A stretch of 38,149 nucleotides of DNA from a virus. Numbering within the stretch: position 1 is the first letter of the stretch; every line of letters begins with the position of its first letter. Position numbers and translations under genes: made by a program. Positions 1-37,420 of this stretch are shown piece after piece. The stretch covers positions 1 to 38,149 of the IMG/VR virus record IMGVR_UViG_3300036781_000824. One strand, given 5' to 3'. The notes under the pieces are model-generated. The model did not search any database. It was not told the DNA's origin and saw only the letters and a program-made list of their open reading frames with translations.

Positions 1-3000
1 TTAGACATTCGCGTCCCCTCCGTACAGCCCATTGCGCTCATTCAGCGCCTGGCCGATCATGCTGGCGCCCTCGTCGCGCAGCCAGCCCTTCATCGTCTTC
101 GTGTCCATCGTGTGAACGTGCAGATGCACATCGCCAGATCCCGAAGAAGACGGCATGATCGAGCCACCGCCGCCAGCCGCCTGCAGATACATCGCGGCCA
201 TCTGCGCCGCGTCCGCGCCGCTGTTGATCGCGCTTAGGAACGGTGCATGCGCCTGGCCGGGGACTGGCTTGATCAGGCGCTCGCCGAGCTGGGCATGAAT
301 GAATCCTTCTGTCGACGACGTGGCGAGATCTCCGAAGCCGGCGATAACGCCGCCCGCATGGAACTGCGCGGCAGAGCGTGCGGTGTATTGGTGGCCGCCA
401 CCAGCCAACGCAGTGATGTCCTGGACAACCTTGCTCGTTTCCTTGTCCAGGTAGTTGCTCTTGACCCAGTCGGCCGCGGACGCGCCCCACTTGGCGCGCA
501 TATAGGCATAGCCTTGGCTCGCCGCCGCGTTCGCCTGCGAGATCCCGTTCAGGAAATCGGCACCAGTCCCGCTGTTGTAACTGGTCTCGATCTGCTCCAT
601 CTGCGGGAACAGCGTCTGCTTGTAGTAGTCGCGCGCGGCAAACCGGCCGCTCTCGCCGAGGATGTCGCCAACCAGGTTCGTCCCCAGTCCGATCGCCGCA
701 CCCACAACCGCGCCAACCGCTGTGCCCAGACCTGGAACGATGGAGCCGATCGCCGCGCCGGCTTCCGCGCCGCTCATCGCACCGCCAAGCGCGCCGTTCA
801 AGCCGCCCTTGTGAAAGGCATCCAGCACGCCCTGCGTGCCGCTGTATGCGCCGTAGGCGAGCGCGCCGAACCCTGCGACACCATTCATCGCCCCCGACAA
901 GCCAGGAGCGCCACCAACGCTCTGCATCGCGCCAGGTGAATTCGACCCGTTCAGCCACGCATCAAGATTGCTGTCGGCGTCGCTGCCCGCAGCAGACTTA
1001 TTCCCTCCAGCGATCTGCGACACCTGGCGGGCCAGGCCCGTCACGCCTTGAATCGTCGAGCCCGTCGAAGCCGGCGAGTAAGTCGAGTTTCCAACTCCGG
1101 CCGGCCGCACGATCCCGCCCGCTCCTACATTCGAGCTCACGCCCGGCGACGCGGTCCAGCTCGGCGGCAGGCTCGTACCGGAAGGGATCACGCCGGCAGT
1201 GCCCAGAGGTGCTCCGCCCGCTGCGCTGGGCATCCCCGCCGCATGGCCTCCCAGCACGCTGCCGAGGATCCCGCCGAATCCAGCCGGCGCGGAGCTCGCG
1301 CCAGGCTGCATCGAACCCAGCGTGTTGCCGAAGAACTGCTTGAAAAGCTGCGTACGCATGATCCAGGCCGCGATGATCTCGAAGAACATCTGCTCCATCT
1401 TTTGCTTGATGAAGGCGGTTGGATCGGTGAACGCCGACTGTAGCTGCCCAGCGATCGTGTGCTGCAGGTTTGCGTTCTGCTCGGCGATCTGCGCATTGGC
1501 CGACGCGTCGATAGCATTCTTGCGGCGATCGAAGTCATCCCACTGGATCAGCTTATTGTTGAAGTCGGCAGTCAGCTTCGCAGTGCGGGCATCGTCCTGC
1601 GCCTGGATCTCGGCTATGCCGTTCTTGTAGGCAGCAACCCAGCCCAGGATCCCTTGCTCGCGGATCCGCTGCACCGACTGCGCTGCCTCACGCTCATATT
1701 GCAGATCTTCATCGGCGTTGCGCTGGCGAAGTGGTGCCTTCTGTGCTTCGCCTTGGGCTTTGATGTTCGCCAGGTCTGCCGCATGATCGGACAACTCTTG
1801 AGGCGTGGCGAACTGGCCCTTATCCCCAAACTTGTCGGCGAAATTCCTGTTCGAAGCCGAGATACTCCGCTGCGTCTCGGCATCGATCTTCGCGAAGCCC
1901 TGCAGCTGCGCATCGGTCCTTTGGTCGATCTGCCCCTTCACGTATTCCGTGAACTGCCGCTCGAACTCCTTGTTCTTCTGGTTGTAAACATCGTCCGCTG
2001 CCGAACGTTGACGCGCAAAATCTGCCAGCTTCGCAGGATCGTCCGAGTCTCCGATCACAGACTTGGCCTGCACCTTGTTGATGTCGGCGATAGCCTCATC
2101 GTGCTCTGCGGCGATCCTTCCAGCCTCCGGCAACCCTGCCTGTTTCGCAGCTTCCGCCAGCTTGTCGGTTTGCTCCGTCAACGCGCGAAGCCGCGCCATG
2201 CGCTCGTTGTCATACTTCGTCTGGTTGGCAGCCAGCAGCGCAGCCTGTGTTGCCGGCTGAATTAGACCCTCGCTGCGCCGGCGATTGATCGTGTCATCCA
2301 TCTGCTGCTTTGCAACCAGATAGGCTCTATCGCCATCGATCCCGGCCTTCACCGCCTCATTGTGGGCGGTGATCGTTTCGTCGCGCTCGGCGCGCGTCAA
2401 CGCTATGGTCTTGCTGTGATACTCGTTGTCCGCTTTCTCCCGCGCAAGGTCGAACTCCTTCTGCCCGGCCTTGGGATCATTCCTGTGGACTGGGGTTAGA
2501 TTGGGATCATTCACATCCATTTTGTTCGCGAGCTGCTCGGCTCGCGCAGCCTTGGTTACATTTACGAGATCCGTTTCGCGATCCAGCGTGTTCTTCTGTA
2601 TCTGCTTCGCTTCTGCGATCGCGTTGTCCCTTGCTTGCGCTGCTTCCGCATAGGCCCGTAGTCCCACAGCCTTGTCCACGCCTTGCAGGCGGACATCTTC
2701 AAGATCTGCCTGCCTCTGCAATTCATTTCTTCGCGCCCGTGACTGCTCATTTTCCAACGCTATTTTTGCTGCCCTGGCAGCGTCTTTTGGCGTATAAACT
2801 TCCGGCCGCACAGCGTTGGAGCCAATTTGCAGGTTGACGCCAGCCCGTTTCAAGGAATCGGGCGTACCCATATCTATGAGCTTGTTGGTCCCTCCGGCCA
2901 CGAGGTATTCAAGCCCCTTCACTCCGTACCGAGGATATTGCAGCAAGTTCCCTTTATTATTTGGGCCAACACCTGCCGCCTCCTTCTTCGCGCGCAGGTC

Positions 3001-3765
3001 GTCGAGCTGGTCGTTAGTCTGGTCCAGCAGGTCTTTCGCCGTCTCCAAGGATGCAGTGTCGAACAGCTCAGCGTTTTTTGATTTCCCGATTGTCTCTTCG
3101 AACTCGCGCAACTGCGCATTGACATCGAAAAGCTGCTTGTAGAACCCATAAGCCTGCTCGCCCAGGTGAACCAGCACTTCGAGTGAGCCGATAGCAACAA
3201 GCCCGCCACCCACGGCGCCCAGCGCCGTCGCAATCGCCGGCACGCGCGAGAACGCAGACTCCAGCGCCCGGGGCAGCCTGATCCCCAGCGACTGTGAAGC
3301 CAGGCGGATATTGTCCAGGCTTGTGGTCAGGTGCCCGGTTTTTTCAACGGCCGGTGTAGCCGCCTTCTCCACCTGCTGCATCCAGCGGAGCGCTGGAACA
3401 CCCACTGTGGCCACACGCGCGCCGGCATCGCCGAGTTGCTGCATCCACCTCACCGCGGGCGCGCCTACGCTCGCAACGCGGCCGCCGGTGTCGCCCATCT
3501 GCTGCATCCACTTCACACCTGGTGCGCCGACACTCGCGGCCCGTGCGCCGGCATTGCCCATTTCCTGCATCCACTTCACGGCAGGCGACCCGGAGCTTAC
3601 GGTCCGCGACACCGCGTTTGTGGCACTGTCGGCGGCTGCACTTAGCTTCTTCATGGAAGCTTCGCCCTGCACGCCGAGCTGCGTCATCTTCGCGGTCATC
3701 GCATCGATCACGGACGACGTATTGCCGTCTTCCACCCGGATCTGGATTGAAACCATCGTCGCCAT
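1..3765 (-). CDS. Tail tape measure protein
   Basis: This protein of 1254 residues would set tail length and thread through the tail tube during assembly. It is the longest gene of the late operon and lies downstream of the tail tube gene, the usual place. Long stretches are alpha-helical and rich in Ala, Gln, Lys and Glu (about 330-790). Two hydrophobic, Gly/Ala-rich segments follow (about 180-205 and 1000-1050), and the C-terminal third is Gly/Ser-rich. Residues 59-142 hold three and a half copies of a 21-residue repeat built around a KWMQQMGDAGAR-like core. The ATG directly abuts the stop codon of the preceding gene, so translation is probably coupled. The stop codon is the first codon of the window, so the gene is complete, but what follows is not visible. 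The call rests on length, composition and position, not on a recognised catalytic domain. Confidence 0.88.
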   Translation of the reverse strand: MATMVSIQIRVEDGNTSSVIDAMTAKMTQLGVQGEASMKKLSAAADSATNAVSRTVSSGSPAVKWMQEMGNAGARAASVGAPGVKWMQQMGDTGGRVASVGAPAVRWMQQLGDAGARVATVGVPALRWMQQVEKAATPAVEKTGHLTTSLDNIRLASQSLGIRLPRALESAFSRVPAIATALGAVGGGLVAIGSLEVLVHLGEQAYGFYKQLFDVNAQLREFEETIGKSKNAELFDTASLETAKDLLDQTNDQLDDLRAKKEAAGVGPNNKGNLLQYPRYGVKGLEYLVAGGTNKLIDMGTPDSLKRAGVNLQIGSNAVRPEVYTPKDAARAAKIALENEQSRARRNELQRQADLEDVRLQGVDKAVGLRAYAEAAQARDNAIAEAKQIQKNTLDRETDLVNVTKAARAEQLANKMDVNDPNLTPVHRNDPKAGQKEFDLAREKADNEYHSKTIALTRAERDETITAHNEAVKAGIDGDRAYLVAKQQMDDTINRRRSEGLIQPATQAALLAANQTKYDNERMARLRALTEQTDKLAEAAKQAGLPEAGRIAAEHDEAIADINKVQAKSVIGDSDDPAKLADFARQRSAADDVYNQKNKEFERQFTEYVKGQIDQRTDAQLQGFAKIDAETQRSISASNRNFADKFGDKGQFATPQELSDHAADLANIKAQGEAQKAPLRQRNADEDLQYEREAAQSVQRIREQGILGWVAAYKNGIAEIQAQDDARTAKLTADFNNKLIQWDDFDRRKNAIDASANAQIAEQNANLQHTIAGQLQSAFTDPTAFIKQKMEQMFFEIIAAWIMRTQLFKQFFGNTLGSMQPGASSAPAGFGGILGSVLGGHAAGMPSAAGGAPLGTAGVIPSGTSLPPSWTASPGVSSNVGAGGIVRPAGVGNSTYSPASTGSTIQGVTGLARQVSQIAGGNKSAAGSDADSNLDAWLNGSNSPGAMQSVGGAPGLSGAMNGVAGFGALAYGAYSGTQGVLDAFHKGGLNGALGGAMSGAEAGAAIGSIVPGLGTAVGAVVGAAIGLGTNLVGDILGESGRFAARDYYKQTLFPQMEQIETSYNSGTGADFLNGISQANAAASQGYAYMRAKWGASAADWVKSNYLDKETSKVVQDITALAGGGHQYTARSAAQFHAGGVIAGFGDLATSSTEGFIHAQLGERLIKPVPGQAHAPFLSAINSGADAAQMAAMYLQAAGGGGSIMPSSSGSGDVHLHVHTMDTKTMKGWLRDEGASMIGQALNERNGLYGGDANV
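3340..3591 (-). repeat. 63-bp tandem coding repeats in the tape measure gene
   Basis: Residues 59-79, 80-100 and 101-121 of the tape measure protein are copies of one 21-residue unit, and a fourth, degenerate copy covers 122-142. Each unit has the form G-x-P-x-V/L-K/R-W-M-Q-Q/E, followed by a GDAGAR-like stretch. The codons differ between copies, so the array is not a very recent duplication. Confidence 0.85.
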
Positions 3766-5171: not shown

Positions 5172-6173
5172 TTAGACAGCCACCAGGTAGCCCAGCACCT
5201 GGGCATTCATGATGAAGGCGCTGATAGCGGCCGTCGCGCCCGCCTGCAGACAAGTCGTCTCGTCGACATTGATGGTCCACGCCACCTTGTCTTCGACATC
5301 GGCCAGTTTGGCCAGCTTTACCCTCGCGTTGGGAAAGTTGAATCCGAACTGGAAGGTCTTGGTTGGATCCGTCGCGACCGATATGTCGACGGCCGTGTCG
5401 TTCACTTCCAGTGTCTGGATATCATCCGTGCTGTCCGCGATGATCGTGATCTCCATGGAGAACCCGGTCTTACCCGACTCGCCGCTGCCGGCATACAGGC
5501 CATCGCCGCTGCTCTTGAAAGGTCCAGAACCGCGCGAAAGCTTGATCGTGAGATTGCGCTGCCTGCCCGCGTACGACTTCGCAGATCCCGTCGTGATCGT
5601 GAAGATCATGTCCGAGCCCAGGAAGTAGCTGTTGGTCGGAAGCGCCGGCATCGTGGTGATGGCGCCAGGCGTAAACCGCCCCGTGCCCTGCATGCTCAGC
5701 TCCGCCATGACCGCGCCGCGTTCCGGGATAGTGATCGTCAGGTCCGTGGCGAACATGTCCTGGAACTTGCGCTTGATGTCGGCCGTGTCCTCGACATACA
5801 CGGTGGTGCACGGCATCACAGCCGAGATCGGCGGCACCGTGAAGGTATGCGTGTACGGCGCGCCGGATCCGGTCACCACTTCCTGGCCGAAGATCATGGC
5901 CAGCATCCAGCCCAGGCCCCAGCTATCGGCCTCGATCTTGATGTTGCCATCCGTGTCCCAGGCCGTGATCGTCTCATCGGTGGCGAACTCGGTGCCCTTG
6001 CCGGCGTAATCCTTGTCGCTCCTCCGCGTGGGCGTGGGCGTAAACATGGAGCTGGAGTCGAACCGCAGCCGCTTGGTGAGCGCGGCATCGGCCAGGATGC
6101 CACCGTAAGCAACCTGTGTGTTCGGACCCACGACGATGTTGCGGGCGCTCTGTTTTTGCATCGTGACTGACAT
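5172..6173 (-). CDS. Major tail tube protein
   Basis: This 333-residue protein is rich in beta strands, Thr, Ser and Gly, with few Lys or Cys. It looks like the long siphophage tail tube proteins that stack in hexameric rings to form the tail lumen. It follows the gp37-like gene and precedes the tape measure, exactly where a tail tube gene is expected, and no sheath gene precedes it. The ATG overlaps the preceding stop codon by one base (TAATG). A hairpin follows the gene, as expected for a highly expressed structural gene. Confidence 0.75.
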   Translation of the reverse strand: MSVTMQKQSARNIVVGPNTQVAYGGILADAALTKRLRFDSSSMFTPTPTRRSDKDYAGKGTEFATDETITAWDTDGNIKIEADSWGLGWMLAMIFGQEVVTGSGAPYTHTFTVPPISAVMPCTTVYVEDTADIKRKFQDMFATDLTITIPERGAVMAELSMQGTGRFTPGAITTMPALPTNSYFLGSDMIFTITTGSAKSYAGRQRNLTIKLSRGSGPFKSSGDGLYAGSGESGKTGFSMEITIIADSTDDIQTLEVNDTAVDISVATDPTKTFQFGFNFPNARVKLAKLADVEDKVAWTINVDETTCLQAGATAAISAFIMNAQVLGYLVAV

Positions 6174-6481
6174 TACTCGTGCACCTCGTTTTCAGTGTGT
6201 TCATTGCTTTCGTTATTGCCGTCGTCTTCATTGACGGCTGCGGCCGCAGTGGCGGCGGGCTCGGCATCGTCCGCGATCTCCAGCAGCTCGCGCCCATCTG
6301 GCGTGTGATGATCGCGCAGCCAGAAATTCCATTCATAGCTGCGCTCGACCTTTACCGCGTCCTTGCCCTGAAAGGTGAGGTTGCGCCGGCCATTGGCAAA
6401 CGTCATCACGCCATTGCCGGCGAGCTCGCGTCCGCGCTCTGTCAGCCGCACCATCACAAAATCCGATTGATTCCCAGCCAT
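6173..6481 (-). CDS. Small hypothetical late protein
   Basis: About 102 residues. The frame opens at a GTG at 6505, but the ATG at 6481 is preferred because GGAGGAG stands 3-4 bases before it. The N-terminal half has mixed alpha/beta character (around residues 10-70). The last third is a disordered, acidic Ala/Glu/Asn tail. It lies between the gp37-like gene and the tail tube, so a tail-completion or accessory role is possible. No family recognised. Confidence 0.6.
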   Translation of the reverse strand: MAGNQSDFVMVRLTERGRELAGNGVMTFANGRRNLTFQGKDAVKVERSYEWNFWLRDHHTPDGRELLEIADDAEPAATAAAAVNEDDGNNESNEHTENEVHE

Positions 6482-6497
6482 CACTCCTCCATCCATC

Positions 6498-6989
6498 TCA
6501 GACACTCACTTCCGCGGGCCACGCGTTGGGCGCGTCATAACCGGCCGCACCTTCAACCTCGACCGCCAGGGCATACGCCACGCCGATCCCTTGCACCGGC
6601 AGCGTCTCGGTCGCAACCAGCGTCAGCGGCTCCGAGATCTCATTCGTCGCCAGGCGGATCCGAGCCCCGCCCAGGATCACTTCCACCTGTTGCGAAAGCT
6701 GCAGCGAAGCTTTCGCCTGGTCGCTCTGGCTGGTGCGGTCCTCCGCCGCCGCGAGCACCAGGAACTTATGCGTCTTGCTGTATGCAGTTCTCTGTGTCTC
6801 CATCGTCGCGAAGGACGCCTGCAAATACATCACGCGCACGGCCGTGGCGTAGAACACCAGCTCGCCCTGGTCGTTGAAGTCCTTGTCGGTGATCTGCTCG
6901 ACATCCACATTGCTGAGCTGCGCGCCCAGCAGCGCCGTCAGCGCGTTCCACACGTCCGTGGCGAAGAACTGTAACTGCACATCACTCAT
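6498..6989 (-). CDS. Tail-terminator/gp37-like protein
   Basis: A 163-residue protein in the position of Mu gp37 (DUF1834), after the gpG-like gene and before the tail tube. Proteins in this slot usually cap the tail or join it to the head. Sequence resemblance to the family is weak to my eye, so the name is mostly positional. Its ATG overlaps the preceding stop codon in an ATGA arrangement, showing tight coupling. Confidence 0.55.
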   Translation of the reverse strand: MSDVQLQFFATDVWNALTALLGAQLSNVDVEQITDKDFNDQGELVFYATAVRVMYLQASFATMETQRTAYSKTHKFLVLAAAEDRTSQSDQAKASLQLSQQVEVILGGARIRLATNEISEPLTLVATETLPVQGIGVAYALAVEVEGAAGYDAPNAWPAEVSV

Positions 6990-20418: not shown

Positions 20419-20510
20419 TGTCATCCCCGCAGGGGATCTGCTGGTCGCTGTTAACTGTTCGCTGTTAACTGATCCCTGCCTTTTTGTCATCTCGACCGAA
20501 GTGGAGAGAG
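20419..20510. repeat. 91-bp direct repeat, copy 1
   Basis: Starts TGTCATCCCCGCAGGGG and runs through a doubled GCTGTTAACT to CTCGACCGAAG. It is nearly identical to 20822-20913 (a single T/C difference seen in the GAAGYGG part). Similar sequences are known to me from intergenic regions of Acidobacteriaceae genomes, so this looks like a host-derived repeat carried into the phage. Confidence 0.75.
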
Positions 20511-20537
20511 CTGCTTCTGTGCTCTTGCTTTTCTTGC

Positions 20538-20821: not shown

Positions 20822-20988
20822 TGTCATCCCCGCAGGGGATCTGCTGGTCGCTGTTAACTGTTCGCTGTTAACTGATCCCTGCCTTTTTGTCATCTCGACC
20901 GAAGCGGAGAGATCTGCTGTTCGCCCCCTGCCCATGTGGGGGCACCCCATTCATCGCGCTTGCGCTCGGCGCGATGGGTGGGCTACGG
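20822..20988. repeat. 91-bp direct repeat, copy 2, with adjoining host-like palindromic sequence
   Basis: 20822-20913 repeats copy 1 almost exactly. It is followed to about 20980 by a stretch with GGGGCACCCCATTC and GATGGGTGGG around CGCGCTTGCGCTCGGCGCG, also reminiscent of Acidobacteriaceae intergenic repeats. There is no gene here. Confidence 0.65.
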
Positions 20989-23905: not shown

Positions 23906-24101
23906 CTCCTATCAAAACCCATGGATCGCCGATATCCGCCATTTCTTCCCGCGTTCATTCGCTCGGCAAAGCGACTTCGGTTGGCGCGTCTACAGCGGCA
24001 ACAGCAAGGGCGAAGTCATTGGCATGGGCGAACTCAAGTCCGCCGCATACATGAACGCTTGTGCCAACCTCGCCAAGTGGCGTGCGGAGGCGGAACTGTG
24101 A
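23898..24101 (+). CDS. Small protein translationally coupled to the transposase
   Basis: A 67-residue protein, SSSYQNPWIADIRHFFPRSF at the beginning, starting at a TTG at 23898 inside the end of the previous gene with a GGGGGTGGAGA purine stretch just upstream. It ends in the TGA that overlaps the transposase GTG (GTGA), and its last codons contain the transposase ribosome site. The tight fit supports a real gene. No family recognised; an upstream ATG at 23871 in the same frame is an alternative start. Confidence 0.6.
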   Translation: MSSSYQNPWIADIRHFFPRSFARQSDFGWRVYSGNSKGEVIGMGELKSAAYMNACANLAKWRAEAEL

Positions 24102-26182
24102 TCGCACAGTGGCTGTCCCTCCAGGATTTTATGAATGCGTCCGGCTGGAGCCGGCCTACAGTTTTCCGTCACCAGGCGGCTGGAAAACTCCAAACCAAGA
24201 AACAAGACCGATCCACCCTTTACGCGAGCGCATCCCTACCCGCCGAAGCGCTCGCCAAGCTGGAACCCCTGATCGAGCCTCGCCCAAAGACGCTGCGACT
24301 CTCCGAGCCGGCCAGCGCTCCCGCGCCGCTCTTTGCCGCAGCTGAGGCACATCAGGGGCCAGGCCGCCGCATCGTGCTCTCGCCGGAGCAGGAACGTCAG
24401 GCCATGCAGCGGTTGAAGATCCTTCAGCCGCTGCTTGATTTCTGCAGCAACCGCGATGGCGCCCGCGCTCGCGCATCCATCCTCCCCCTCCGCGACGGCC
24501 GCCACGTCACCAACGCCGACCGCATGGCCGACTACCTCGCCGAGCTGCACTCCACAACAGAGCTTTCCGTCACACGCCCCACCCTGTGGCGCTGGAAGCG
24601 CGCCTATGAAGACCGCGGCCTTGACGGCCTGGTGCGCAAGGTCCGCGACGACAAAGGCCGCTCCAAGTGGGCCGCGCGATTCCCCCAGGCCGCCGAGCTG
24701 GTCGCCGCCACCTTCATGCGCCCCTACTCCACGCGCCAGCGCGCCTATGACGCCCTGGTGAAGGCGCGCGTGCAGCTCGGCATCTCCGACGCCGATCTCC
24801 CTGGCTACGACTCTGTGTGCGACTTCCTGGCCGCGCTGCCGGCCGCTCCTGTTGTCTGGGCACGTCAAGGGGAGCGCGCCCACCACGAGCTTATGGCCAG
24901 TTACCTGCAGCGCGAGTACACCGACATCGCGCCCAACCAGGTCTGGGTGGCCGACACCATGATTCACGACACGCTGGTGCGCAACGACTGCTTTGGAGCC
25001 TGCGGCAATGAGGCCGTCCGCCTGCAGCTCACCGCGCTCATGGACCTGCGTTCCCGCAAGATCGTCGGCTACACCTGGTGCCTGGATGGCAGCAGCCGGT
25101 CGATCACCACCGCGCTGATCGCCGCCGTCAAGCGCTACGGCCCCTGCGTAACCTTCTACTGCGACAACGGCAAAGACTTCAAAAAAGTCGGCCGCTTCGC
25201 CAGGCCGGCCAACAACGCCGGGCTCGTCGACGAGGACGTCCAGGCGATCGAGCGCACCGGCGCCCTCCGTCAGCTCGGCATCGCGGTTCAGTTCTGCATC
25301 AAGTACCACCCGCAGAGCAAGCCCATTGAGCGCTTCTTCCGCACGCTGCACCTCCAGCTGGACGCGACGTTCCCGCACTACACCACGGGCAACGCGTATA
25401 CCAAACCCGACGCCACCATCGCCGCCGCCGCCAAGCACGGCAAGCTGCTGCAGATGTCTCTGAAGGCCGGGGCGCCACAAGACATCGAAGCCTCGCCGCT
25501 CATGCCTGCTTCCGTCTTCATCAAGATGGCCTCGCTGTGGATTGAAGGCGAATACAACGCCCAGCACAGCCACCGCGGCCGTGGCATGGATGGCCGCACG
25601 CCTGACGAAGTCTTCGCGCCCGCGCTGCAGACCCGCCGCCCCTTCGACCTCGGCATTCTCGACACATTGCTCTGGCGTCGCGAACGCCGCCTGGTGCGCA
25701 ACTGTGCGGTCACCGTGGACGACAGCCGCTACATCGGCGTCAACCCCGCAGCCGTGGAACGCCTTTATCTGAGCAACAGGAGCGAGGTCATTGTCTGCTT
25801 CGATCCTAACGATCCGGACACTGGCGTCATCACCGACCTCGACGGCCGCAAGCTCTGCGACGTCCAGACCGAGATCCTCGTTGCACACTCCGCCGAAGCC
25901 GGTCCCATGATCGAAGCCAGCCTGCGAGGCAACCGCGGGCGCCGTAACAACATGGCCGCCAATGTGCGCGGCCTGCGCAAGCGTGTCGCCCTCAACGGTC
26001 ACAAGACCGAATCCCAAGCGCTCTACGAACAGGCTCTCCCCATCGCTGTCGGGCAGAACTCGCCCCAGACCATGACCCAGCCCGCACCATCCTCACGGCG
26101 GCTCGCACAGACGAGCTCCGCGCCGATGTACGCCCATGAAGTAGCCGCAAGTATTTTCCGCTCAAAAAAGGAGAACGAGTAG
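24098..26182 (+). CDS. Transposase, MuA-like (DDE integrase core)
   Basis: About 694 residues from the GTG at 24098, which has GGAGG seven bases upstream. The start of the open frame at 23921 is upstream of any ribosome site and is not used. The N-terminus has a helix-turn-helix segment (DFMNASGWSRPTVFRH). The catalytic core has Asp286 in WVADTMIHD, Asp356 in YCDNGKDF and Glu411 in KPIERFFRTLH; the spacings (70 and 55) are close to MuA's. The C-terminal part, which in MuA contacts MuB, is Ser/Gln-rich at the end. It carries out strand transfer of the phage ends, integrating and replicating the genome. Confidence 0.96.
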   Translation: MIAQWLSLQDFMNASGWSRPTVFRHQAAGKLQTKKQDRSTLYASASLPAEALAKLEPLIEPRPKTLRLSEPASAPAPLFAAAEAHQGPGRRIVLSPEQERQAMQRLKILQPLLDFCSNRDGARARASILPLRDGRHVTNADRMADYLAELHSTTELSVTRPTLWRWKRAYEDRGLDGLVRKVRDDKGRSKWAARFPQAAELVAATFMRPYSTRQRAYDALVKARVQLGISDADLPGYDSVCDFLAALPAAPVVWARQGERAHHELMASYLQREYTDIAPNQVWVADTMIHDTLVRNDCFGACGNEAVRLQLTALMDLRSRKIVGYTWCLDGSSRSITTALIAAVKRYGPCVTFYCDNGKDFKKVGRFARPANNAGLVDEDVQAIERTGALRQLGIAVQFCIKYHPQSKPIERFFRTLHLQLDATFPHYTTGNAYTKPDATIAAAAKHGKLLQMSLKAGAPQDIEASPLMPASVFIKMASLWIEGEYNAQHSHRGRGMDGRTPDEVFAPALQTRRPFDLGILDTLLWRRERRLVRNCAVTVDDSRYIGVNPAAVERLYLSNRSEVIVCFDPNDPDTGVITDLDGRKLCDVQTEILVAHSAEAGPMIEASLRGNRGRRNNMAANVRGLRKRVALNGHKTESQALYEQALPIAVGQNSPQTMTQPAPSSRRLAQTSSAPMYAHEVAASIFRSKKENE

Positions 26183-27172
26183 ATGGGACGCCTCACCGAA
26201 CAGCGCAAAGCAGAGCTGACAAAATCGCTTCCTGCAGCCGAGACCACGAAGAAGACCGCCCGCGCCTACATGGCCGCCGCCAACCTGGGCATCGAGCAGT
26301 TCGCCAGGCTCCTTGGTTATTCGCTCTCCGCAGTGGAGAAGTTCACCCACGGCGACTATTCCAGGGCCGGCACAACCGATCTCTTCATCCGCGAGGCCAT
26401 TGAAGGCTTCATGGCCAAGCACCCGGTCGGCGTGGCCCGCACTGAAAGCGAAGGCCGGCTTTATGAGACGGCCAACGTTCGCGAGATCCGCCAGTGGTTC
26501 ACGCACTGTCAGCACAAGCAGGCCCTGGCCTTCGTCTACGGGCCTCCAGGCAGCCAGAAGACCTTTGCCCTGCAGCACGTCGTCGCGGAGTTCAACCGCC
26601 GCGAGCTCGCCCGCACCAGCTCCAGCAACCGCGCCTACATGGTTCGCGCCAGCATCAACATCTCGCCGCGTGACCTTATCCGCAAGATCTGCGCGGAGGT
26701 AGGCGCGCCGGCCACGGGCGGGATCCAGCGCAGCATGGACGCGATTCGCTTCGCTCTGCGCGGAACCCGCACCGTGATCGTGATCGACGAAGCGCAGCTC
26801 TGCGGCATCCCCGCGCTCGAAGCCGTACGCGAGCTCAATGACAAGCCGCTTTCGCTCGGCATCCTGCTTGCCGGCAGCCACGGCCTGAAGACCTTCTTCG
26901 ACCAGAACGCTCACAAGCTGGAGCAATGGAATTCCCGCATGGACATGGGAGCCGAGCTCTCCGGCGTCAGCGACGAAGACGCCCGCAACATCATCAAGGC
27001 CGAACGCTCCGACCTGAAACAGGGCCAGATCACCGCGCTCATTGCAGGTTCGCGCGTGCGCGACATCTACAGCCGCGAGCGCGACCGCACCTACATCTCG
27101 ATGCGCCGCCTCTTCAAGAACCTCGCCGCGCTCAACGCCCTCGAAGCCGAAGAGAAAGGAATCGCCGCATGA
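26183..27172 (+). CDS. Transposition ATPase, MuB-like
   Basis: A 329-residue AAA+ ATPase that binds target DNA and delivers it to the transposase. Residues 25-60 are a helix-turn-helix, as in MuB. Walker A is GPPGSQKT (120-127) and Walker B is TVIVIDEAQ with Asp202-Glu203. An arginine-rich sensor region follows. The gene follows the transposase with an AGGAG site 10 bases before the ATG. Length and order are as in Mu (MuB is slightly shorter). Confidence 0.92.
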   Translation: MGRLTEQRKAELTKSLPAAETTKKTARAYMAAANLGIEQFARLLGYSLSAVEKFTHGDYSRAGTTDLFIREAIEGFMAKHPVGVARTESEGRLYETANVREIRQWFTHCQHKQALAFVYGPPGSQKTFALQHVVAEFNRRELARTSSSNRAYMVRASINISPRDLIRKICAEVGAPATGGIQRSMDAIRFALRGTRTVIVIDEAQLCGIPALEAVRELNDKPLSLGILLAGSHGLKTFFDQNAHKLEQWNSRMDMGAELSGVSDEDARNIIKAERSDLKQGQITALIAGSRVRDIYSRERDRTYISMRRLFKNLAALNALEAEEKGIAA

Positions 27173-28180: not shown

Positions 28181-28454
28181 GACTGACGCCGAAATGCGAG
28201 TGCTGGAGCGCTCGCTCGCCTTTGAGCAAGCCCAGCAGTTTGCCGAGTCCGTTTCCAACCCGGTTGAACCCGAAGGCGCGGATGACGCGCGCGACTGGTT
28301 TGACCTCACCGACAGCAGCCGCGCGGAAGACGAGGCACACCTGCTCGACGAAGCGCTGGAGTACCTGACCTGGCGCGGCCTCCTGCTCCGCCATGACGCC
28401 AACCCCAACATCATCGCGATCCGCGACGAGCACGAAGCCGAGGTCAAGCAATGA
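28173..28454 (+). CDS. Early hypothetical acidic protein
   Basis: A 93-residue acidic protein with a good GAGGAG site before the ATG. The sequence is helical with many Asp/Glu residues (DARDWFDLTDSSRAEDEAHL). A strongly acidic small protein could be a DNA mimic or a partner of a DNA-binding protein, but nothing beyond the charge supports that. It overlaps the ASCH-domain gene by four bases (ATGA). Confidence 0.55.
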   Translation: MPKTDAEMRVLERSLAFEQAQQFAESVSNPVEPEGADDARDWFDLTDSSRAEDEAHLLDEALEYLTWRGLLLRHDANPNIIAIRDEHEAEVKQ

Positions 28455-28906
28455 GCACACGCGGCCTGATGGCTCTCAGCTTGACGCAGCCTTGGGCCTC
28501 TCTTGTAGCAACTGGAGCGAAGCGTCTGGAAACGCGCTCATGGCGTACGTCATACCGTGGGCCGCTCGTGATCTGCGCAGCCAAGGCATATCCGAAGGAC
28601 GCCCGCGAGCTGGCGAAGATGCGCTCGTTTCGCGAGGGACTGGGCTGGCCCGAGAACACTGACTCGCTCCCAGTGGGCGTTGCTCTCTGCCTCGTGCATC
28701 TCGCGGGATGTGTGGAAACGGATCGCCTGGAGAAGCTCGAAGTCATAGGCGTCAAGCCTGCGGCGAAAGATCTTTTGTTCGGAAACTATGAACGGGGCCG
28801 TTGGGCCTGGGCGCTCAAGGATGTGCGCGCTTTCACCCCTTTTCCGGTTCGCGGAGCTCTCGGATTGTGGAAGTGGCCCGAACATCTGGAGGTACCCCAT
28901 GTATAG
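28451..28906 (+). CDS. ASCH-domain protein
   Basis: A 151-residue protein of the ASCH fold, a PUA-related beta barrel that binds RNA or nucleotides. The hallmark is the start: ALSLTQPWASLVATGAKRLE, then TRSWRTSYRGPLVICAAK, with the barrel closing near ALGLWKW. Many ASCH proteins in phages and mobile elements are of unknown role; one, YqfB, is an amidohydrolase of modified cytidine. The start overlaps the previous stop codon (ATGA). Confidence 0.85.
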   Translation: MSTRGLMALSLTQPWASLVATGAKRLETRSWRTSYRGPLVICAAKAYPKDARELAKMRSFREGLGWPENTDSLPVGVALCLVHLAGCVETDRLEKLEVIGVKPAAKDLLFGNYERGRWAWALKDVRAFTPFPVRGALGLWKWPEHLEVPHV

Positions 28907-29798
28907 CTACCAATCTCACCAGCCAGCCCATCCCGCTCCAGGCATCCAGTCCTACGCCTACAACGAAGAACGCATGATGGACGGCATCCGCAAGTTCCGC
29001 GCGGAGCAACGCGCGACGTGCGTTGCAAGAAGAACACCGCCCAGCAAGCCCCAGCCCGTCGCTGCCGTTCAACCCTCGGCGGTCTTGATCGCCCCCGCGC
29101 TTCCTGCCGCCCCCGCGCTTCCTGCCGCCACCGTGGTGCCTCAGCCCGTCGCCCAACTGATCTTCGAGCTTGTGTCCAGCGAATATGGTGTTTCCGTGGC
29201 GGAGCTCAAGCACAACAAGTCCCGCGCCGAATGGATCGTTACCCCTCGTCAGCTCGCCATGCTGCTTCTACGCAGGAATGCGTGCTTGAGCTTCGGACAG
29301 ATCGCAGCCATCTTTCGCAAGCACCACACGACAGTGATCTACTCCGTCGAGATGGCTGGCGCCCGCGCCACCCGCGATGAGCGCATGCAGAACGTCATCG
29401 CACGTTGCCCATTTTCGCCAATGCTTGGCTCCCTGGAAGTCACCATCGCGGACAAGCCTGCACTCGGCTTTCCTATCAAAGGCGGCCTGACTGAACTCAT
29501 CTTTGCGCTTGTTGCGCATACCTACTCCATCAGCATCTCCGAGATCCGGTTCACCCGCTCGCGCAAGGCGCGGTTCAAGATACCGCGCTGTCTGGCGATG
29601 CTGTTGCTCCACGAGAAGTGCGCCCTGAAGTTCGAGCACATCGCTCAGATCTTCCGCTGCAAGGCGTCCACCGTTCCCGAATGCATCGCGAAGGCCGAGC
29701 TGCTCGCCCAGAAATATCCAGCCATGAAAGAGCTGATCAACGCCTGCCCATCCCAGCAAGCGCCTGGATGTGGGGCTAGGAGGCTTAGTGGCGATTGA
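28899..29798 (+). CDS. Protein with two tandem DnaA domain IV (DNA-binding) modules, no AAA+ domain
   Basis: About 299 residues from the ATG at 28899, with GGAGG seven bases upstream. Residues 84-165 match the C-terminal DNA-binding domain of DnaA: LVSSEYGVSVAELKHN, then VTPRQLAMLLLRR, LSFGQIAAIF and KHHTTVIYS, the last being the DnaA signature that contacts the DnaA box. Residues 197-285 repeat the same order in degenerate form (ISISEIRFTRS, KIPRCLAMLLL, LKFEHIAQIF, CKASTVPE); the signature HTTV is changed to STV. The N-terminal 83 residues are Pro/Ala-rich, without the DnaA ATPase domain. It may bind DnaA boxes on host or phage DNA to direct or block replication initiation. Confidence 0.85.
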   Translation: MYSYQSHQPAHPAPGIQSYAYNEERMMDGIRKFRAEQRATCVARRTPPSKPQPVAAVQPSAVLIAPALPAAPALPAATVVPQPVAQLIFELVSSEYGVSVAELKHNKSRAEWIVTPRQLAMLLLRRNACLSFGQIAAIFRKHHTTVIYSVEMAGARATRDERMQNVIARCPFSPMLGSLEVTIADKPALGFPIKGGLTELIFALVAHTYSISISEIRFTRSRKARFKIPRCLAMLLLHEKCALKFEHIAQIFRCKASTVPECIAKAELLAQKYPAMKELINACPSQQAPGCGARRLSGD

Positions 29799-29931
29799 TA
29801 ACGACTTCGATCGCGCGAGCGACAAGCACACCGAAGCCCAACGCGCACGCGATGCCTTCGACCGCGCAGACGCCTGGGCCAAGGCCCCGGCCGGCACGAA
29901 GTACTCCGCACCCGAAAAGGAGACCGCATGA
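29788..29931 (+). CDS. 47-residue protein
   Basis: A short gene from a GTG (29788) with AGGAGG four bases upstream to the TGA at 29929-29931. It overlaps the previous gene's end and the next gene's ATG (ATGA), so it fits the operon exactly. The product is charged and helical, MAIDNDFDRASDKHTEAQRA at the start, with many Asp/Ala/Arg. Function unknown. Confidence 0.65.
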   Translation: MAIDNDFDRASDKHTEAQRARDAFDRADAWAKAPAGTKYSAPEKETA

Positions 29932-30365
29932 TCGGAACTTTCTTCGAAACCGCCGAAGACCGCGCTGTCAACCACGCCTACGAAGTGCTCAAGGGGAACA
30001 CGCCCGATGGGCTGCTGCCCACGACACGCCAGCAGGCGATCCTGCGCATCATCGCCGACAAGCGTGGTCTCAAGAACGCCATCCTGGTCGGGCGCCTGGC
30101 CGAGCTGCTGAAGGCCACGCCGCGCCAGATCAAGGACGACATTCGGGATCTCCGCTTGCTTTTCAAAGTGCGGATCGGCAGCTCGCGCGACGCCATCGAT
30201 GGCGGCGTGTACCTCATCACCACGAAAGAGGAAGCGCTCGACACCGCGCGTCCTTTCCTGCGGCAGGCGTCGGCAGAGCTCGCTGTCGCCCGCGCCATCC
30301 TCGAACCCCACGAGCTCGCCGAGCTAGAAGGCCAGCTGCGCCTGGAGGCCGCACCCAATGCCTAG
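29928..30365 (+). CDS. Early winged-helix-like protein
   Basis: A 145-residue protein with a likely winged helix (about 38-100): QQAILRIIADKR, then LVGRLAELLKATPRQIKDDI and a GGVYLI strand pair, followed by a charged helical tail. A DNA-binding role is likely from this pattern. The ATG overlaps the preceding stop codon (ATGA). Confidence 0.6.
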   Translation: MIGTFFETAEDRAVNHAYEVLKGNTPDGLLPTTRQQAILRIIADKRGLKNAILVGRLAELLKATPRQIKDDIRDLRLLFKVRIGSSRDAIDGGVYLITTKEEALDTARPFLRQASAELAVARAILEPHELAELEGQLRLEAAPNA

Positions 30366-34366: not shown

Positions 34367-34417
34367 CTTTCGGCGTGCCCGGTGGAATGCACCCCACGAG
34401 CGCTGAAACTTGCAAGC

Positions 34418-37400
34418 ATGTTTCGTGGATTCACCTCCTGCCTCATCGCTCTGCTTTCGTTCGCCGCTTTACCTGCACTCGCACAGGCTCCGTCCGGCTT
34501 CGTCACGTTCAACGCGTCCTACATGCAGGACGCCACGCACACCCTGATTCAGGACGCCACGATCTACTTCACGCCCGTCGTTATGAGCGGGCAGCCGGCA
34601 TCGTTCAAGGCTGGCGGAACGTCGCAGGGCCAGGTCGCGGCCCGCACCATCCAGGCATCCATCACCAACGGTGTCGTCAACGTGCATGGCTCGGCAGGCG
34701 TCACGCTCGCCGATTCTTCGATCGCATCGCCAGTCAATATCTGCTACACCATCACCGCGACCGACAACGACACCGGTGAAGATCTGCTCGGCCCTGGTTA
34801 TAGCTGTGTGCAGACGGCGGCCAACAACACCTGGTGCACATCCAGCGTCTGCAACTTCGATCTCTATAGCCCCAACCTCGCAGCGCTCGTGGTCTCGCAA
34901 AATGGCCCCACAGGCGCAACCGGACCAACAGGCTCGACCGGTCCGATCGGCGCAACAGGTGCAACCGGACCAACCGGAGTCACGGGCGCAACGGGAGTCA
35001 CCGGACCTACTGGCCCAACAGGCTCGACCGGCTCAACTGGCGCGACAGGTGCAGTCGGCGGAACCGGCCTTCCCACTGTCGCGGATCCAGCGATCGCCAC
35101 GCTCGAAGCCGCGTACACCTATCCATCACCGCCCACGGTGACAACGCAGGTCACCGGGCCGCCGTACGGTGCCTTCGCGAATCAAGGCTCACCGGGCTCG
35201 GTAGTCGTCTTCAACAGTGCATCCACAGCGACCACTTTCGCGGGGATACCCCTAAGCTTCAACGCCAACTTCTTTGCAGCCTCTGCCGGCCGGAACGTCG
35301 AGTTCTACATCTTCGATAACACCAACACAATCATCTACAACTCGGGGCTGCTGTCAGCTCCCAACGCTGGCAACTTCACATACGCGGTACCGCTGGCAAC
35401 GGCGGAACGTACCCGCATGCCCATTGGTTCGTACGTGGGCATGTACAGCAGCACCGCGTTGATCGATCAAGCGTTTCAGTCGTACCCAAGCAGCTATAGC
35501 TATCTGTCCACGTCGGCGACCGGCAGGCTGTCTTACGGCACCACATCGGCGACAAGTTGGGGCTCCAGCGGATTTACGACACAGCATGCGCTGACGGACA
35601 ACGTGATGTTGACCGTCAGGCACGAAGCGGTCTATGTGACCACGCCATGGGAAGGGCAAGCGAATGGGATTGCGGGACTCGACGCCTCCGCGCATTTGCT
35701 GCTTACGCAAGCTCCCGTGGCTCTATCCCAAAAAGACACGCTCACCACGGGTAATGGCGGTGTCGTAACAACTGCGTACGATCCAGCGATCCCAACGGTC
35801 GATCTTGCTGCTGTGTTCCCTCCGATCAAAGACACGATCGAGTACAGTGCCACGCCCTACATGTATTGGCAAAACTCCCTGGATACGTCGACTGGTGGAA
35901 CCAGCCGCGGTTCAACGGGCGTCGGCACGAACACGGCGGGCTCCACTTGTATTTCCTTTACGACTGCCGGCAGTGTGAATGGCGGTTTCCTTCATGACGG
36001 GCTTCTAACCGCAGTCACCCTGTATCCATCGACCACTGCAGCGACAGCGGTTCAGGCATGGGTATTGCGTCCGAACGCCACTTTGACTTCGTCGAAGGTG
36101 ACTGACGCAGGGTCGACGTTCTTCTCTTTGGTGGCGACCATCGGCCAACTCACGCGCACCAGCACGTCTTATTGGGAAGAGTTCAAAGGCCTGGCTATAC
36201 CAGTCAAGACGGGCGATGTCATCGCGGTTCGAGCCCTCGGAGGCTATGTAGGCGGCGGCGTCAATTTCACCGGCGACTATGGGGCCTGCCAGGACATCGC
36301 AGACACGTCTCTCAATGCCCTGAACGGCGGCTTTTCAGTTGGAGATAGCACCAACGGGTTCGCTGGCAACTGGACATCGGGACTAAGAGTGGATGTCAAG
36401 GCGACGATCCAGCCTTGGTCATCGACCGCACTCTCCAACCAGCTTCAGGACGCAAACGGCAATATCCCGGCCAGCAAGTACCGCGCGGATGATATGCCCT
36501 TTGCCGGGAAGATCGGACTGGGGTTTGGGACATCGATTGAGTCTGGCACTGGGTCAAACGGTCCGGCCGGAAACGCACCGTATCCGAACGGATATTACAA
36601 CATTGCTGCCCGCATGCTGCGCTTCGGAAAGTGGGTCAATAATGCCCTGGGTTCTTCCAAAGCAGAGTCTGGTGCGCAGCTGTCCTTGTCATCTACCCGC
36701 GCTGAAATCACTGCGCTTGGCGGTGATCCTACAAACTCCTATGAGTACAGGATGCTTGGTTTGCAGAGCACGGGTGGCTCTCTGCAAGCAGGCTGGATTG
36801 CGCCTGATGTCATCTGGTTTGGGCACTGTACAAATGACAATCTCAGCACAGCACTGGGCACCATGTATGCGAGTGGATCAAGTGGCCCACTCAATGTGGA
36901 CCGTACAACGTTTTACGGTGCACTCAACTACCTACGTATTCAAGCACAGGCTGCCTACCCAAATACGATGTGGGTGTGGGTTGAGCCACCCAACACTGGC
37001 ACAGGTACTACAGGTGGCGGATGCAAAGCCGTGTACGCAACGATGGCGGCATTCTATGGTGATCCACTCATTGATTTCTCTGACTCCATGCGCTTTCCGC
37101 GCGGCGGTGGAGAAAGCAGCACAAGCACTCACACATCGGCCGGCGTCTATCCCGTGTGGCCCGCCTTGGGCACATCTTCGCTTTACCTGAGCGGCCATAC
37201 CTATAACCAATACGACGGCGTGGTTTCCATGACCGATGGTCAGAGCTACATTTCGTTGGTTGGTTCAAATCAAGGCAATGACCCAACAAGCTCCCCGACG
37301 TTCTGGAAGGTGCTCGGCAACACCACGGACGGCACACATCCCGACAAGTGGATTCACCTGCGCTCTGGGTATGCCTTGTATCGCGCGATGCTCAACATCG

Positions 37401-37420
37401 GCAACAACTGGATTCACTAA
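34418..37420 (+). CDS. Secreted protein: collagen-like repeats plus SGNH/GDSL hydrolase domain
   Basis: A 1000-residue protein starting at the ATG at 34418, with an N-terminal signal peptide ([20 protein letters not shown] and cleavage after ALA). A beta-rich domain covers about 25-155. Collagen-like Gly-x-Y repeats ([13 protein letters not shown]-type) span about 162-215. A large Ser/Thr-rich middle follows, then an SGNH hydrolase domain: Ser706 in GFGTSIESG, Asn806 in GHCTND and Asp971/His974 in [14 protein letters not shown] enzymes remove acyl groups from sugars. A signal peptide is odd for a tail fibre; it could be a lysogenic-conversion surface enzyme or a host-derived gene. A GTG at 34382 is an alternative start. 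Confidence 0.75.
34904..35065 (+). repeat. Collagen-like Gly-x-Thr coding repeat
   Basis: About 54 codons with Gly at every third position and mostly Pro/Thr/Ala/Val/Ser between. Tandem DNA repeats such as GGCGCAACAGG and CCGACC variants underlie it. Likely a rod-like trimeric spacer between the N-terminal and hydrolase domains. Confidence 0.85.

Follow-up and report, generated by a model that had tools for sequence, protein, structure and literature searches.

Domain IV of the bacterial initiator DnaA (Pfam PF08299, Bac_DnaA_C; PDB 1J1V and 3PVP) contacts the bases of its target in E. coli through R399, P423, D433, H434, T435 and H439 (PMC7561715; PMC5043019). Phages, GTAs and transposases also use this DNA-binding domain without the motor of DnaA, in roles that are settled in few cases. 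GafA of R. capsulatus has a DnaA-DBD-like N-terminus and a sigma-like C-terminus (PMC6363796), and GafY, or HdaB, of C. crescentus is homologous to DnaA domain IV, its replication role as HdaB being disputed (PMC9632790). In the open-licence papers searched, these two were the only characterised phage-derived domain-IV proteins, and both are transcription activators. In TnpA-REP subclass 2.1, the Y1 transposases end in a Bac_DnaA_C domain, for which replication-fork targeting has been proposed (PMC6006769). Short phage proteins with a single domain IV and no ATPase are also on record (phrog_30669, phrog_27829; about 75 ORFs).

We studied a protein, P0001, that has two such domains. It is encoded in a 38,149-nucleotide stretch of viral DNA, IMG/VR record IMGVR_UViG_3300036781_000824, referred to here as the window. 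Like GafA and GafY, P0001 is phage-derived, has a DnaA-domain-IV-like part and lacks an ATPase, and GafA is bipartite too; however, the second part of GafA is sigma-like and GafY has a single domain, whereas the second part of P0001 is another domain IV. The TnpA-REP (RAYT) proteins of subclass 2.1 likewise place domain IV in a mobile element, but fused to a Y1 HuH transposase; P0001 has no catalytic domain, and Pfam found no Y1 HuH transposase domain in it. The first-pass annotation of the window knew of no described protein with two domain IV units, and the tandem form was indeed absent from the open-licence literature searched. Relative to that literature the tandem form is newly described, domain-IV-only phage proteins being already known.

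Gene context and domain structure of P0001

The window is a virus record of a Mu-like transposable phage: it encodes a Mu-type transposase, an adjoining AAA ATPase B and a repressor that includes an S24 peptidase domain, and its minus strand carries the genes for the terminase, the portal and the tail. A tail fibre gene (34382-37420, +) lies on the early strand and includes a collagen-like repeat with a 9-nt period at 34900-35085. The gene for P0001 stands in the early operon that also holds the A and B genes, as previously annotated, and its start is overlapped by 8 nt by an upstream ASCH-domain gene, with which it is likely co-translated (Table 1). The ORF runs from an ATG at 28899 to a stop codon at 29796-29798, and its third-position GC bias resembles that of the adjoining early genes.

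Table 1 Coordinates of the tandem domain IV genes, their parts and neighbouring early genes
Feature	Position	Strand	Description and evidence
Mu-type DDE transposase A (rve, Mu-transpos_C), early operon	23921..26182	+	Pfam; relatives
MuB-like AAA ATPase B	26183..27172	+	Pfam; relatives
ASCH-domain gene, upstream of tandem gene	28451..28906	+	PF04266
Shine-Dalgarno-like GGAGG	28888..28892	+	6 nt 5' of ATG
Tandem DnaA-domain-IV gene (P0001)	28899..29798	+	299 aa, pI 9.7, no ATPase domain
Predicted N-terminal helix, residues 19-43	28953..29027	+	AlphaFold model
Domain IV copy 1, residues 82-170	29142..29408	+	Pfam 63.1 bits, E 2.5e-17 (residues 84-165); fold matches 1J1V, 3PVP; alignments
Flexible linker, residues 171-196	29409..29486	+	pLDDT <50 over 173-194
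Domain IV copy 2, residues 197-284	29487..29750	+	Pfam 35.3 bits, E 1.2e-8 (residues 197-285); own model pLDDT 91
Conserved early gene g29928 (phrog_2113), downstream; syntenic anchor in relatives	29928..30365	+	
Tandem ORF of prophage in genome G936	L197:9813-10640	-	276 aa from MNLELL start

PF08299 matched P0001 twice, with both scores above the Bac_DnaA_C gathering score of 31.5 bits, and each half also passed when scanned alone. Aligned to each other over 87 aa, the two halves shared 37% identity (E 1e-16). In the AlphaFold model of the protein, a flexible stretch rich in Pro and Ala runs from the N-terminal helix to about residue 80; two six-helix modules come next, at residues 82-169 and 197-282, with a low-confidence linker between them. 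When domain 2 was modelled alone, its best twelve PDB fold matches were all DnaA (1J1V, TM 0.80). Note that the AlphaFold input alignments included DnaA rows, which may favour the DnaA fold, so that the fold result depends partly on the sequence result. Both domains are basic (pI 9.9 and 9.5 for domains 1 and 2). Pfam detected neither an ATPase family nor a known DnaA protein-interaction part (domains I or III) in P0001, and the full-length DnaA equivalog TIGR00362 reached 77.6 bits of the 343.9 needed, with domain IV alone matched. These results confirm what had been proposed on first reading, namely that P0001 consists of two DnaA domain IV units, the second as well as the first matching and folding like that domain, without an ATPase. 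Since it has no ATPase, P0001 cannot assemble an initiation complex alone.

The two units differ in the residues that read DNA. Where domain 1 has HHTT (29322-29333), domain 2 has KAST (29661-29672), so the earlier remark that the signature is kept in the first copy and lost in the second was correct. In alignments, domain 1 retains the equivalents of R399, R407, Q408, H434, T435 and T436, with His at E. coli position 433; in domain 2, R399, R407 and T436 are retained, positions 433-435 read K, A and S, and position 408 is Cys. We take R407, Q408 and T436 to be contact positions of E. coli domain IV as well. From these residues, domain 1 is predicted to be able to read a DnaA box, and domain 2 not to do so in the usual way. 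P0001 therefore shares with bacterial DnaA the fold and, in domain 1, the box-reading residues, but has two copies of the domain, no AAA+ module, no domain I and, in copy 2, neither H434 nor T435. Position 433 was His in 30 of 32 Acidobacteriota DnaAs, a set partly chosen by similarity to P0001, and in the first domains of P0001 and of the second tandem protein (see below), whereas among the phage single-domain proteins 48 of 56 had Asp. The latter thus differ from P0001 in having one domain and mostly Asp-433. KHHTT was also present in DnaAs of the likely host clade, a set chosen via a dispersed repeat (see below).

A second tandem protein, rarity and origin

Further tandems were sought by comparing the domain alignment with Acidobacteriota genomes and inspecting those with several matches. 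A second tandem match was found at G936:C1:4004857-4005408, in an Acidobacteriota chromosome. With a model built without that ORF, its domain IV matches had E values of 6.7e-12 and 3.2e-5; the second domain by itself scored 21.2 bits (E 2.9e-4), under the Pfam cut-off. This protein resembles P0001 in having an N-terminal helical region, an HHTT-type domain first and a degenerate domain second (STGT in place of HHTT), and in belonging to a Mu-like early operon. It differs in sequence, with about 29% identity to P0001 where the two match, and in its position, its gene lying beyond the g29928 homologue whereas that of P0001 lies before g29928. The Mu-like prophage that carries it is related to the window throughout, with identities of 51% for the regulator, 38% for A, 37% for B, 33% for g27402, 33% for g29928, 38% for g33189, 37% for the repressor, 35% for the terminase and 34% for the tail tube. 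A second tandem in a related Mu-like prophage of a soil bacterium indicates a design that is genuine though rare, and connects the architecture with this phage lineage.

About 75 phage domain-IV ORFs, many of them near-identical, were collected from IMG/VR by the HTTV motif, and no tandem was among them; the phages collection gave single-domain matches alone; and neither tblastn against phages and plasmids nor a scan of viral contigs returned a close homologue of P0001. Several candidates were set aside. The larger domain IV protein of phage contig L141 had a weak second match (E 0.05), its second part being a different helix-turn-helix, and the several matches in each of the genomes G756, G763 and G979 were separate single domains or RAYT-like. 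Two phage contigs carry two separate single-domain-IV genes each, at 2721-3158 (-) and 5878-6489 (+) in L129 and at 2112-2654 and 5815-6513 (+) in L141, and the larger L141 protein adds the different helix-turn-helix just mentioned.

We gathered 39 IMG/VR relatives of the phage via the transposase. Their early genes were syntenic, with a variable stretch from g27402 to g29928; in one of them (L008) the g29928 homologue comes directly after the ASCH gene. Domain IV was found in none of the 39, several of which are partial records, which indicates that the tandem gene is accessory and that transposition does not require its product.

In a careful tree the two P0001 domains were sisters (99/97.8), on an alignment of 88 columns, few for so many rows, and in a quick tree domain 2 stood on a long branch. 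This sister relation points to P0001 having arisen by internal duplication, followed, as the long branch suggests, by fast change in the second copy. A single clade of all four tandem domains, those of P0001 and of the G936 protein, was not rejected (p-AU 0.26). A recent acquisition of domain 1 from a host dnaA is not supported, given its 33-36% identity to the DnaAs of the probable host clade and its position in the tree among phage single domains. The long branch of domain 2, together with the singleton status of P0001 in viral collections, would fit a captured gene that is degenerating and has no present function. We consider this very improbable: the ORF is intact, with a ribosome-binding site, a tight operon overlap and the third-position GC bias noted above, and the very divergent second tandem retains the same layout.

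Host and candidate DNA targets

The window contains a direct repeat of 97 nt (20419-20515 and 20822-20918, 98% identical), that is, a host-type dispersed repeat inside a phage record. The 16-mer GTCATCTCGACCGAAG within it occurred in 4 of 30 Acidobacteriota genomes (3, 24, 35 and 79 copies) and in none of 30 genomes from the order to which a betaproteobacterial MAG belongs, and its reversed control was absent from the same genomes. Two of the three relatives found in genome_contigs were labelled acidobacterial MAGs. On the indirect evidence of the dispersed repeat and the G936 prophage, the host is probably an acidobacterium, and the tandem protein thereby links a Mu-like lineage to a phylum with few known phages. 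Given its 33-36% identity to likely host DnaAs, domain 1 may have drifted in its target.

Searches of the phage DNA gave few DnaA boxes. The 38-kb window had no exact TTWTNCACA (0.7 expected) and 16 one-mismatch boxes against 26 expected, i.e., fewer than by chance, and related shorter words were not in excess; the G936 early region likewise lacked both exact TTWTNCACA and any such excess. The search for box pairs thus gave no support to the suggestion that P0001 binds pairs of DnaA boxes on the phage DNA, and the lack of enrichment also argues against a phage origin made of DnaA boxes. TTCCACA sites do occur on the minus strand at 28866 and 28711, 33 and 188 nt before the P0001 start codon. 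We do not take them for operators: both lie inside the ASCH gene, the nearer one in a conserved LWK motif, and these half-boxes are probably coding sequence. In Acidobacteriota, TTTTCCAC-type sites lie directly after dnaA, sequences of the TTTCCAC and TTTCCACA types are among those recurring there, and box-like sites were also present in the dnaA-downstream region of G936. Mainly because the phage shows no box enrichment, we place the targets of P0001 on the host chromosome.

Possible functions

Our preferred reading, to which we assign a probability of roughly 40%, is that P0001 is an accessory early DNA-binding protein acting as a host-directed DnaA-box-binding competitor or regulator. Domain 1 would bind DnaA-box-type sequences on the acidobacterial chromosome (oriC, DnaA-regulated promoters), with TTTTCCACA/TTATCCACA as candidate boxes, and domain 2, still basic and DnaA-folded, would add affinity for neighbouring DNA or read a different sequence. 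P0001 would in this way limit or redirect initiation, or DnaA-controlled transcription, during the early phase of the phage, a role in accessory host takeover and not in the core of transposition. The reading is supported by the box-reading residues and host-type His-433 kept in domain 1, and by the same division, HHTT and then a degenerate domain, in the G936 protein.

The main rival, and the one with the best precedent, is that P0001 regulates phage transcription in the manner of GafA/GafY: the domain IV pair would bind phage promoters and control middle or late genes, with replication uninvolved. GafA activates the RcGTA promoter, to which it binds (PMC6363796), and GafY activates a GTA (PMC9632790); in addition, P0001 weakly matches NCBIfam PRK06030 (E 8.5e-4), and in the scanned early genes Pfam recognised neither a Mor nor a C regulator. 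Yet domain 2 is DnaA-like and not sigma-like (sigma region 4 gave a TM of about 0.4, to query), the phage has no enriched box or obvious shared site, and a gene missing from all 39 relatives is not the standard late activator of the lineage. We regard such a role as a genuine possibility, if short of an even chance. The first-pass annotation stood as regards the tandem, the missing ATPase and the early operon and fell short on the phage box pairs, and it had missed the GafA/GafY precedent. With one intact and one re-shaped head, the tandem offers a concrete test of an anti-host-initiator against a transcription factor.

The same annotation suggested that P0001 recruits or blocks the host initiator, and that it links replicative transposition to the host replication machinery; both are possible. 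A direct aid to replicative transposition, by steering integration to DnaA-bound regions of the host or by bringing replication proteins to the transpososome, would agree with the shared operon with A and B, with the second tandem in a related transposable prophage and, by analogy, with the Bac_DnaA_C domain at the C-terminus of TnpA-REP subclass 2.1 (PMC6006769). It appears improbable, however, as most related transposable phages have no tandem gene, DnaA boxes are not clustered in the phage and P0001 has neither domain I nor domain III of DnaA. A broader version of the host-directed reading is speculative and rather unlikely: Mu-like phages of Acidobacteriota would repeatedly have built a two-headed DnaA mimic, one head being a box reader with the host His-433 and the other re-tuned, that commandeers oriC or the DnaA regulon to the benefit of replicative transposition.

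Other domain IV proteins were observed in Acidobacteriota. A family of short proteins has a shortened domain IV (SRQVAMYLAKHVG...NGRHHTTV) and occurs at L163, L165, L168, L174 and others (G979, G1008, G819), with up to eight copies in G979. Another acidobacterial locus, L172:625-1692 (+), encodes a Y1/RAYT-like transposase with a weak C-terminal domain IV match, which fits TnpA-REP subclass 2.1.
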